From contig JAPPFB010000012.1 of the NCBI GenBank assembly GCA_028875225.1, positions 1 to 64,000 of the forward strand: DNA of 64,000 nt, in the 5' to 3' direction. The translations under genes and the position numbers were made by a program. Shown here one piece after another: positions 83-35,146 of this stretch. Positions within the stretch are counted from its first letter, which is position 1; each line of letters starts with the position of its first letter. The notes below the pieces were generated by a model. It searched no databases, was not told the DNA's origin, and saw only the letters and a program-made list of their open reading frames with translations. Source of the DNA: Chloroflexota bacterium. GTDB taxonomy: Bacteria > Chloroflexota > Dehalococcoidia > Bin125.

Positions 83-100
83 GCAACGACCGGATCGAGT

Positions 101-256
101 CGAACAAGCCCGAACAGACCCGAACAACTCCAGCCTCCATCGCGTGCGCCTGGATCCTCCAGGTCCTTCCAACACCAACCACCAACCACCGGCCCGCCAA
201 CCCGCTCCTGCCCACGTCCGAACCGGACCGAACGCGACCGAACACAGCCGAACAGC
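101..256. repeat. 10-bp-phased CCGAAC repeats, locus A
   Basis: CGAAC occurs at 101, 111 and 121. CCGAAC occurs at 218, 228, 238 and 248, exactly one unit per 10 bp. The four bases between cores vary. The intervening part is C/A-rich with weaker periodicity. The reverse-complement motif with the same period occurs at 34751-34790. Confidence 0.65.
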
Positions 257-493
257 ATCACCTGCTAATGGCTGCTCTCAGACCAACAAAAGTGGTCCAA
301 CATTGTGCAAAAGTGACCACCCGAAATCGCCAATCCCCGGCAAAACACTGGAGAACCTACCGTTCAGGCCCCGAAGAAAAAAACTCTCGCCGGACACCCG
401 AAGCTCGAACAATCCTCTCGTCCCGAACAGCGCCCCGCCAGCGGGCTGAGGGGCGTATCCTGAGAATCCGACAAGCAACGAGGAGCGGCACCG

Positions 494-1093
494 ATGACCA
501 CCACCAGCGAACAACCGGTCAAGAACCGAGTCGGCAACTTCAACGTCGGCGGCATCAATCACCTCGCACTCGTCTGCCGCGACATGCAGCAGACCGTGGA
601 TTTCTACGAGGGCGTGCTGGGCTTCCCGCTGGTCAAGACGATTGAGCTGCCCGGCGACATGGGTCAGCACTTCTTCTTCGACATCGGCAACGGCGACTGC
701 CTCGCCTTCTTCAACTTCCCCAACGCGCCCGAGCCGGCGCCCGGCGTCGCCTCGCCCGATCCGAACACATTCTTCGACCCCTCGGCCGAGCTCGTGACTG
801 CGATCGCTTCCATGAACCATGTCGCCTTCGACGTTGACCCGGAGGAGATCGAAGAGATGCGCGAGCGGCTGATCGAGGCCGGCATCCGTTGCACGCCGAT
901 CCTCAACCACGACGACTCGCCGCGCGGCATCGCCCGAGAGAATCACGAAGGCGTGTTCGTGCGCTCCGTCTACTTCTACGATCCCGACGGCATCATGCTC
1001 GAACTGGCCGCCTGGACCCGCGCAATGCGCCCCGACGACGTCCGTCATGCGCCGGCCCGAGCAGCGAGCGCGGCGGCGGTTTTGGCGGACTGA
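494..1093 (+). CDS. VOC family protein (glyoxalase/dioxygenase fold)
   Basis: This is a 199-residue protein with two beta-alpha-beta-beta-beta modules, from about residues 18-75 and 105-175. Candidate metal ligands fall at the positions expected for the fold: H23 in INHLAL, D68, H109 in MNHVAF and E170 in the strand DGIMLELAAW. The family includes lyases, isomerases and extradiol dioxygenases, so the substrate cannot be named. The ATG is preceded by AGGAG at 481-485, eight bases upstream. The C-terminal 20 residues are Ala/Arg-rich and probably disordered. It stands alone, upstream of the sigma factor gene on the same strand. Confidence 0.85.
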   Translation: MTTTSEQPVKNRVGNFNVGGINHLALVCRDMQQTVDFYEGVLGFPLVKTIELPGDMGQHFFFDIGNGDCLAFFNFPNAPEPAPGVASPDPNTFFDPSAELVTAIASMNHVAFDVDPEEIEEMRERLIEAGIRCTPILNHDDSPRGIARENHEGVFVRSVYFYDPDGIMLELAAWTRAMRPDDVRHAPARAASAAAVLAD

Positions 1094-3072: not shown

Positions 3073-3162
3073 GCGGGGGTAGCTCAGGGGTAGAGCTCCT
3101 GCCTTCCAAGCAGGTTGCCGCGCCCCAAAAGAACCGACCAGCGAATCCCGTCCCCCGCTCCA
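3073..3162 (+). pseudogene. Aberrant tRNA-Gly(TCC) copy 1, T arm disrupted
   Basis: The acceptor stem, D arm and anticodon arm (loop CTTCCAA, anticodon TCC) are the same as in the intact copy at 3301. In the T arm, the four bases GGTT are replaced by a 19-base segment (3123-3141), which destroys the 5' half of the T stem and the TTC of the T loop. The 3' acceptor half and an encoded CCA remain. Length is 90 instead of 75. It is probably non-functional in translation, or a specialised variant. Confidence 0.7.
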
Positions 3163-3186
3163 TCCGGTACGCTCATCCAAACCCAA

Positions 3187-3276
3187 GCGGGGGTAGCTCA
3201 GGGGTAGAGCTCCTGCCTTCCAAGCAGGTTGCCGCGCCCCAAAAGAACCGACCAGCGAATCCCGTCCCCCGCTCCA
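3187..3276 (+). pseudogene. Aberrant tRNA-Gly(TCC) copy 2, T arm disrupted
   Basis: This copy is identical to copy 1 as far as I can read, including the 19-base T-arm replacement (3237-3255) and the spacer that follows it. The repeat period is exactly 114 bp (3073, 3187, 3301). Identity of the two copies points to recent tandem duplication or to selection. An assembly artefact is also possible. Confidence 0.7.
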
Positions 3277-3300: not shown

Positions 3301-3375
3301 GCGGGGGTAGCTCAGGGGTAGAGCTCCTGCCTTCCAAGCAGGTGGCCGCGGGTTCGAATCCCGTCCCCCGCTCCA
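3301..3375 (+). tRNA. tRNA-Gly (TCC), intact
   Basis: The full cloverleaf is visible: acceptor GCGGGGG/CCCCCGC, D arm GCTC-GAGC, anticodon arm CCTGC-CTTCCAA-GCAGG with anticodon TCC (reads GGA), T arm GCGGG-TTCGAAT-CCCGT, discriminator T and an encoded CCA. It is the third member of a tandem array whose first two copies have a broken T arm. Confidence 0.95.
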
Positions 3376-22390: not shown

Positions 22391-22443
22391 TGCTGGCCGG
22401 TTGGATCGGCCGTCTCGACGCTCGAGGGATTCAAGCAGGAGTT

Positions 22444-22481
22444 GAGGGCCCTCACCCTAACCCTCTCCCTCAGGGAGAGGG
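22444..22481. repeat. GC-rich dispersed repeat, copy 2
   Basis: This reads GAGGGCCCTCACCCTAACCC then TCTCCCTCAGGGAGAGGG. It is the inverse-orientation copy of the element at 53-82 and forms a CTCTCCCT/AGGGAGAG hairpin. Both full copies lie next to 10-bp-phased repeat tracts. Confidence 0.65.
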
Positions 22482-22560
22482 GATGGGAAAGGGGTGAATT
22501 CTGGTCGATTTCTTCTGATCTCCTGTCCTGGACTGAGGATCGTGCGTTCTGGCGTCCGGG

Positions 22561-22670
22561 AGAGTCCGGATTTGTCCAGATTTGTCCAGATTGTGCCAGT
22601 TTTGGCTGGTTTTGAGCAGGATATGTGCGGCTGAGAGCAGGGATGTGCTGGTGGGAGCCGGATTTTGCGC
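22561..22670. repeat. 10-bp-phased degenerate repeats, locus B
   Basis: Cut into blocks of ten from 22561, the sequence shows CC or GC at nearly the same phase for eleven blocks: TCCGGA, then TTTGTCCAGA twice exactly, then TGCCAG, GCTGG, AGCAGG, TGCGG and so on. The period matches loci A and C, but the core sequence differs. Confidence 0.55.
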
Positions 22671-22808
22671 CGATCATGGCGGGCGCCTTTCGGGGAAGAT
22701 ACGGTCATATGTTCTTATGGTAGGCAGATTCGGCGCCCCGGAGTGAGTCGGCTGCGTCAGTGGCGGGGTGATCGAGGTGGCGGGGTCGCGCTAAGATGTC
22801 GATGGCGA

Positions 22809-33726: not shown

Positions 33727-34524
33727 TTAACGGCGGTAATCGGGCTGGCGCTTCTCGCGGAATGCCGCCTGTGCTTCAGCGGCGTCGGGGCCGGACATGG
33801 TTGCCTCTTCCATCGACAGCGAGAGCGGCAGGACGAGATTGGAGACGTGCTTGATCCACTTGTTGATCGGCACCTTGGATGCGGAGATGGCAGCCAGCGG
33901 GCCATTCGACAACCGCTCGGCCAGGGCCAGCGCCGTGGGCATCAGATCGTCGTCCTCGACGACATCCTGGACCAGTCCGAGTTCCCTGGCCTGCTCGGCG
34001 CGAATGTGCTCACCGGTCATGAGGAAGTACTTGGCCCGCGAGGGCCCGACCAGCATCGGCCAGATCACGCCGCCGCCGTCGCCGGCGCCGATGCCCATAT
34101 TGACGTGGGTGTCTCCGAGGACGCCGGAGCGTCCGATATAGACGACGTCGGCCATCAGCGCGACCGTGGCGCCCAGACCGAGGGCGTAGCCATTGACGGC
34201 GCAGACCACTGGCTTCTCGCAGTCGAGCCAGTTGTCGACGATCAGACGGGCTTCATTCATCCGATTCAGATAGCGGCCGCCCATCGGCTCGTCGCGATCG
34301 GCGGAGAAGTCGCCGCCGGCGCAAAATGCGCGTCCGGCGCCGGTGAGCACCAGGACGCGGACCTCATGGTCGCGGTTGGCGTCGACGGGCAGCGCCGCCA
34401 ACTCGCGGTGCATCGCCGAGTTGACGGCGTTGAGCTTCTCCGGCCGGTTCAGCGTGGCGACGGTCACGCCGTCGGAACGCTTGTCGATGTCGATGGTGGT
34501 GTAGGCGTCGGGGTTGAGGGTCAT
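33727..34524 (-). CDS. Enoyl-CoA hydratase/isomerase family protein
   Basis: This 265-residue crotonase-fold protein has GRAFCAGGDFSADRDEPMGG, then the core helix GYALGLGATVALMADVV. The hydratase glutamates are not visible. A single acid lies in GIGAGDGGG, at the place where isomerase-type members keep theirs. The C-terminal AEAQAAFREKRQPDYR is typical. The reaction on acyl-CoA cannot be fixed. It is monocistronic, preceded upstream by a large repeat-filled gap. Confidence 0.87.
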   Translation of the reverse strand: MTLNPDAYTTIDIDKRSDGVTVATLNRPEKLNAVNSAMHRELAALPVDANRDHEVRVLVLTGAGRAFCAGGDFSADRDEPMGGRYLNRMNEARLIVDNWLDCEKPVVCAVNGYALGLGATVALMADVVYIGRSGVLGDTHVNMGIGAGDGGGVIWPMLVGPSRAKYFLMTGEHIRAEQARELGLVQDVVEDDDLMPTALALAERLSNGPLAAISASKVPINKWIKHVSNLVLPLSLSMEEATMSGPDAAEAQAAFREKRQPDYRR

Positions 34525-34710
34525 TGGTCACTCCAGGTGCAGCTCAAGCGTGTACAGACTAGCGACCGATGGCTGTCGAATTTGACTTGCCTGACGATGG
34601 TTTCAGGTGTTCGGCGAGACCTTTTTTCTGGGCGGGACAACGACCGCAACGGACGCGATGTCCTGCAAAACACTAGAGATCGTGGACTCTGAGGGTTCAA
34701 CAATTTTCAG

Positions 34711-34800
34711 GTTTTTTCGGATTTTTTCGGGCCTCTTCGGGCGTCGAGAGGTTCCGATATGTTCGGTGCTGTTCGGATCCGTTCGCGGCTGTTGGCGTCG
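34711..34800. repeat. 10-bp-phased TTCGG repeats, locus C
   Basis: TTCGG ends at 34720, 34730 and 34740, the first two behind six-T tracts. GTTC or GTTG then starts at 34751, 34761, 34771, 34781 and 34791. Spacing is exactly 10 bp. The core is the reverse complement of the CCGAAC unit in locus A. Phased T-tracts predict curved DNA. Confidence 0.65.
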
Positions 34801-35020
34801 AAGCAGGTTGAGGTAGGCATTGAGAGTGACTCCGACAACTTCACACGCACTGGCGTTCTGATTGTATCGGGTGAAGCAGCGCGGTGCGGATCCGGGCTGA
34901 AGCGTTGGGGTCTTGTGGTTGACGATCTCGCTTGAGGCGGTTGTTGAGGGCAGGCGTCGATATGAGCCGGGGTTGACCTCCTGCTCCGGTTCGACGTTCG
35001 AGGCCTGGGCCCCGCATCAA

Positions 35021-35146
35021 GTGCGGGGCATCGGGACGGGAGTGCGGGGGATCGGGGCGGGAGTGCGGGGCATCGGGATGGGAGTGCGGTGCTTCGGAGC
35101 GGGAGTGCGGGGCATCGGGACGGGAGTGCGGGGGATCGGAGCAGGG
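35021..35146. repeat. Six 21-bp tandem repeats
   Basis: The unit is GTGCGGGGCATCGGGACGGGA, given here as GTGCGGGGCATCGG plus GACGGGA. Units start at 35021, 35042, 35063, 35084, 35105 and 35126 with few substitutions. The first unit coincides with the right arm of a GCCCCGC hairpin like those ending the elements at 27331 and 52472. Confidence 0.85.

Follow-up and report, generated by a model that had tools for sequence, protein, structure and literature searches.

Tandem arrays in which the core CGAAC recurs at exact 10-bp steps precede about 30 genes in this uncultured Chloroflexota bacterium, and several arrays fall within the open reading frames of a multi-copy helix-turn-helix (HTH) family. 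Judged from sequence comparison, the arrays are probably binding sites of these lineage-specific HTH proteins, serving as operators or insulators 5′ of genes, with the intragenic copy providing self-control.

Phased arrays in the window

The window is the whole 64-kb stretch of DNA (64,000 nucleotides) that was analysed. It contains the following features:

100-129, plus strand: distal phased array of locus A, CGAAC at 101, 111 and 121
218-258, plus strand: proximal phased array of locus A, CGAAC at 219, 229, 239 and 249 (CCGAAC from 218)
287-321, plus strand: second phased block of locus A, AAAGTGGTCC AACATTGTGC AAAAGTGACC, in the position held by CCTGAAA or CCGACCA blocks elsewhere
334-356, plus strand: palindrome block of locus A, TCCCCGGCAAAACACTGGAGA (genome family TCTCCNGCAAAACACTGG)
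371-402, plus strand: A-rich block of locus A, CGAAGAAAAAAACTC...CACCCGAA, which closes the composite element
453-464, plus strand: GCGTATCCTGAG of locus A, near-invariant across array-bearing orthologues and largely kept in several array-less ones
494-1093, plus strand: VOC-family gene 3′ of locus A (name read from the sequence)
34761-34787, minus strand: three CGAAC units of locus C, 5′ of a minus-strand enoyl-CoA-hydratase-like gene (33727-34524)
34704-34750, minus strand: second phased block of locus C, CCCGAAAAAATCCGAAAAAACCTGAAAA
34656-34685, minus strand: palindrome block of locus C, GTCCTGCAAAACACTAGAGATCGT as written on the plus strand
22564-22604, minus strand: phased array with another core (CTGGAC type), AATCTGGACAAATCTGGACAAATCCGGAC, preceded by GAACATATG and ATG

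The spacer bases between the CGAAC cores of locus A differ from unit to unit. The first 500 bp contain five CGAAC pairs at 10 bp; 5,000 dinucleotide shuffles gave 0.006 on average and never more than 1. CGAACN5CGAAC has 7 matches in the whole window (0.25 expected), 2 of them at locus C. A previous sequence-only reading of this DNA had reported exact 10-base CGAAC steps with variable spacers at locus A and a reverse-complement copy with the same step some 34 kb away; the former were found again at their coordinates, with a pair count that the shuffles never reach, and the latter lies at 34761-34785. The GCGTATCCTGAG sequence at 453-464 would be the -10 region of the downstream gene.

Several other repeats share the window. 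At 56-85 there is a GAGGGAGAGGGTTAGGGTGAGGGCCC repeat, possibly a REP-like element, which recurs beside arrays and upstream of many HTH genes (L050, L054, C2:299 kb). The gap adjoining locus C holds a GC-rich 21/42-bp tandem repeat (AGTGCGGGGCATCGGGACGGG) at 35020-35142. On the minus strand at 22400-22720, GAACATATG, a ribosome-binding-like stretch and an ATG are followed by the CTGGAC-type array, and the HTH domain is missing; by its sequence, this stretch looks like the relic of an HTH gene. Two tandem 114-bp tRNA-Gly-like copies with extra bases (3073-3273) lie ahead of an intact tRNA-Gly (3301-3375). An Rfam search of window positions 1-40000 returned tRNAs only, and a known RNA family was thus rejected as an explanation of the arrays.

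Composite structure and position relative to genes

Many arrays are part of a composite with a fixed order: CGTCCA/CGCACA units, CGAAC units, a second phased block of the AAACCTGAAA, AAACCGACCA or AAATTGTGCA type, the palindrome CGATCTCCnGCAAAACACTGGAGATCG, an A-rich block terminating in CCGAAAACCTGAAA, and then the gene. Across the genome the palindrome core is present 20 times, mostly next to arrays. The genes 3′ of the arrays are diverse housekeeping genes, including gltX, uvrB, yajC, efp, sucD and fumC (names read from sequences). Of 29 intergenic arrays, 25 have CGAAC in the sense orientation relative to the following gene (p = 1e-4) and 4 in the antisense orientation. Co-directional gaps are preferred (20 of 24 arrays against an expected fraction of 0.54, p = 0.003). 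Start codons follow the arrays at distances of about 15-300 bp, often with co-directional genes on both sides; in a second array class, likewise frequent between co-directional genes, the distance is 13-74 bp. A coding repeat was ruled out, as 10 bp is no multiple of 3 and most arrays are intergenic. A terminator of the upstream gene was likewise ruled out: the hairpin is not followed by a T-run, convergent gaps hold 1 of the 29 arrays, and several arrays lie in divergent gaps.

The array strand has a base composition of A 0.29, C 0.36, G 0.21 and T 0.14, compared with 0.20, 0.32, 0.31 and 0.18 in all upstream regions. An A/C-rich, G-poor transcript with a YC step every 10 nt could act at the RNA level, as a Rho-loading (rut) or other RNA-protein site that insulates neighbouring genes. 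The co-directional preference fits such a role, as do the arrays that end 13-34 nt ahead of a start codon and the fact that all arrays in HTH genes are sense. This last bias, however, is also expected from the hydrophilic linker that those arrays encode, and YC steps suffice for Rho, which does not require GAAC or GATC. A role in RNA would also leave unexplained both the concerted change of CGAAC to CGATC and the tie to a DNA-binding HTH family that are described below, and it is decidedly improbable.

Distribution in the genome and among relatives

Three CGAAC cores at exact 10-bp steps have 63 matches in the 3.2-Mb genome; the reversed pattern, as a control, has 0. In intergenic DNA, distances between CGAAC pairs peak only at 10, 20 and 30 bp, and lag-10 windows stand out against other lags, with none in the coding sample; these intergenic and coding statistics are based on two contigs (0.74 Mb) and on gene calls made by a simple home-made caller. 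Autocorrelation across the whole of the intergenic DNA has no strong lag-10 peak, which excludes a general intergenic 10-bp periodicity and restricts the signal to the arrays. The sequence-only reading had proposed a genomic family rather than a single slippage event, to be checked by a motif search against background and by lag-10 autocorrelation. The family is supported by the 63 matches against 0 and by the further relatives that carry the pattern; the lag-10 signal holds for local windows and fails for intergenic DNA as a whole.

Among 41 relatives compared, the three-unit pattern is frequent in G000, G001, G002, G005, G006, G010, G013 and G014, which belong to the same genus, and in G017 of a sister genus. 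About half of the genus, together with one sister genus, carries it commonly; the remaining genus members have few copies (0-5), other family genomes 0 and the rest of the class none save for one chance-like match, all of these genomes being metagenome assemblies in which absence weighs less than presence. GTDB-wide, most of the four-unit arrays outside Chloroflexota are single per genome among the matches listed. A second dispersed array family, with CTGGAC at 10 bp, is found in the same genomes as the CGAAC arrays.

Selection on cores at locus A

Orthologues of the locus A gene from 13 genomes were compared. Five of the 13 loci carry the array and the remainder have a shorter, array-less gap. 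In the five array-bearing species core positions are 96% pairwise identical and spacers 47%, and the palindrome and GCGTATCCTGAG are also kept. Filled and empty versions of locus A both exist; a MITE- or REP-type insertion would have defined ends and a target duplication, and here the flanks are too diverged to fix the ends. Intrinsic curvature, in which helix-phased A-rich steps bend promoters and no dedicated protein takes part, might be read from the A-runs that recur every 10 bp in second blocks (e.g., AAACCTGAAAAAACCTGAAA). Many arrays nevertheless have G/C-rich spacers around an intact core, and bending would not predict a switch from GAAC to GATC in all units, making curvature a very improbable account.

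A helix-turn-helix family with arrays in its own genes

In the HTH proteins, an N-terminal HTH and a helical segment lead into a long P/T/N/Q-rich linker, which is followed by a short C-terminal part. Part of the linker is encoded by the array sequence, which is always sense in these genes. The HTH domain matches Pfam HTH_23 and sigma-70 region 4 with weak scores, and PHROGs scans of the family gave HTH, transposase and terminase, again with weak scores. In an AlphaFold model the N-terminal domain is predicted to be mainly helical (mean pLDDT 80); a fold search with this model gave no significant structural match, which tempers the proposal that the proteins line up on arrays. A literature search for phased-array HTH systems found nothing matching.

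Different subfamilies carry different cores. CGAAC occurs in FPNYP-type and MNPAQRA-type HTH genes, YGGAC in the PTPRRCRRIL type and CCTGAA in the NISPRRRRR type. The NISPRRRRR-type genes contain the entire composite (CCTGAAA units, palindrome and A-rich block) in frame, where it reads NLKEPE...SKTLEIV...EKNSFPNLN. In G017, where some arrays reach a dozen or more consecutive units, 7 of the 11 CGAAC array clusters fall within HTH genes, which make up about 0.3% of the genome (p about 3e-16). Array-rich genomes have 5-17 HTH genes, G009 and G011 have 2-3, and nine genomes with 0-5 arrays have none; over 20 family genomes, HTH copy number and array number have a Spearman correlation of 0.86, with counts that are not phylogenetically independent. 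YGGAC arrays are numerous mainly in genomes with the PTPRRCRRIL-type subfamily, G009 being an exception. Against this association, a few intergenic arrays occur in G007, where no HTH gene was found, and in G009, where no matching HTH type was seen; the joint presence of an HTH subfamily and an array type within one gene could also reflect common descent alone. Nucleoid proteins, which the sequence-only reading had put forward as readers, find no support, and the evidence favours the lineage-specific multi-copy HTH family as the candidate reader.

HTH genes diverge fast at fixed loci (50-63% identity). The two examined in context have metabolic neighbours. Phage and plasmid records gave no relative of the two HTH queries used, which speaks against a phage or plasmid origin of the family. 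An upstream motif around GAACATAYRTAC or ACATGTACAT, which may be an HTH-gene promoter or operator, is shared among HTH genes (L271-L369; 27/61 vs 32/693 other genes), and a comparable stretch precedes locus A in orthologues L050 and L054. In G007, the genome without a detected family member, two array composites (L308, L309) are near-identical. A CGAAC array also falls within the low-complexity linker of a lipoprotein-like, non-HTH gene (L015, G000:C3:45.2 kb).

Concerted change of the core

In G006, an HTH orthologue syntenic with the CGAAC-bearing orthologues of G001, G005 and G013 has CGATC as its array core. This led to the prediction, made before the search and unregistered, that dispersed CGATC arrays would occur in G006. 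There are 10 such arrays in G006, 8 in G013 and 57 in G017, and 0-1 in G000, G001, G002, G005 and G010; G013 has its own CGATC-bearing HTH gene (L397). At the uvrB, yajC and phyH-like loci, the arrays of G000 are built on CGAAC and their G006 orthologues on CGATC, a switch that takes in all cores. Around the switched cores the sequence still aligns, at uvrB over the palindrome and promoter region and at yajC and the phyH-like locus over the flanks. On these comparisons, it is difficult to see how all units at dispersed loci could change in parallel unless some trans-acting factor reads them. Cores that are kept, spacers that drift and cores that change jointly would together indicate a sequence-reading protein on one DNA face, in agreement with the conserved core on one face of the DNA and free spacers that the sequence-only reading had described.

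Intergenic arrays could also derive from the 3′ half of HTH genes, as functionless relics or copies that these genes spread or left behind in the form of mobile or decaying DNA. Compared with array-less orthologues locus A is an insertion, its orthologues have an HTH-gene-like upstream motif, window 22400-22720 resembles an HTH gene minus its HTH domain, composite blocks are common to HTH genes and intergenic DNA, and HTH genes evolve fast at fixed loci, all of which such an origin would accommodate. Relics, however, would decay alike at all positions, and at locus A the cores are conserved while the spacers drift; the orientation of arrays toward the downstream gene and the joint core switch at alignable loci also count against it. 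Had arrays been copied from the HTH gene, core types could also agree between species, but the alignable spacers and flanks seen at yajC would not be expected. An origin as functionless relics is considered unlikely.

Proposed mechanism

If HTH proteins are the readers, each paralogue would recognise its own core of 5-6 bp, repeated every 10 bp on one helix face, and several molecules would stand next to one another along the array, one to each turn. Arrays upstream of genes would work as operators or insulators, either by themselves or together with palindrome and A-rich blocks. The preference for co-directional gaps would suit a roadblock or insulator, and a regulatory operator is equally possible. 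Through the intragenic array, the HTH protein would bind within its own gene and limit its own transcription.

Relation to known systems

The closest analogue of the HTH family, in gene organisation, would be the phage O-type initiators with an origin inside their own gene. The lambda origin lies within the O gene (PMC5043065). Phage lambda O-type and DnaD-type initiators likewise have an N-terminal DNA-binding domain and a linker encoded by tandem intragenic sites, and the HTH genes carry tandem phased arrays, here putative binding sites, in the same place. In contrast to O-type initiators, the HTH family is chromosomal and multi-copy, with many sites ahead of unrelated host genes, and the lambda iterons are 19-bp inverted repeats. 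PHROGs scans listed no initiator family and thus detected no homology to replication initiators, so that the HTH family is like the initiators in one respect and is not classed with them. Phage initiator genes often have CGAAC at 10 and 11 bp, sense-oriented and within the region that encodes the linker. Of 80 viral contigs with four CGAAC at 10 bp, 27 have them in initiator-like genes, 26 of these sense, compared with 0/92 for two other cores. IMG/VR loci L398-L477 and L575-L654 have CGAAC at 10-/11-bp steps in replication initiator genes of many unrelated phages, far above control cores, which looks like a widespread intragenic origin code. The sense bias in HTH genes and phage initiators alike is probably due to the hydrophilic linker R-T-x-x-N-x-x-E encoded by the sense strand.

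The operator repeats of MraZ are also spaced by the helical turn, and its protein fold differs from that of the HTH family. MraZ is a transcription regulator that reads direct repeats and controls its own gene (PMC8475190), two features that the HTH family would share. MraZ sites gather at one promoter, in contrast to dozens of arrays with several core types and a copy within the coding sequence. A MraZ-type (double SpoVT/AbrB-like) fold was rejected, as Pfam and AlphaFold give an all-helical HTH domain.

Gram-positive LexA (SOS) boxes, CGAAC-N4-GTTCG, have the same half-site letters as the array core. They consist of inverted half-sites and the arrays of direct repeats at 10 bp, which excludes SOS boxes, and the array-linked genes are mostly not concerned with DNA repair. 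Some phage small terminases, which are also HTH proteins, have their recognition site within their own gene. Identity with a small terminase was rejected, the similarity being weak and at the HTH level, with no large-terminase gene noticed beside the two HTH genes examined. Pac-like sites in host DNA can be used by a phage terminase system (PMC11226127).

Significance

A broader and more tentative proposal, which is quite possible without being the safer bet, is that of a self-addressed regulator family. HTH paralogues would carry their own DNA code in the gene and read it at dozens of genomic places, with code words that change in step and an evolvable recognition of one core per turn, possibly derived from phage initiator logic. 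As the gene of the presumed reader holds a sample of the site that it reads, pairs of protein and DNA code could be read from sequence. The natural CGAAC to CGATC switches between sister species are ready-made tests of co-change between regulator and site. For sponge-associated Chloroflexota, the arrays suggest an undescribed protein family that organises the DNA upstream of genes, and CGAAC at 10-11 bp is seen again within the replication initiator genes of phages.
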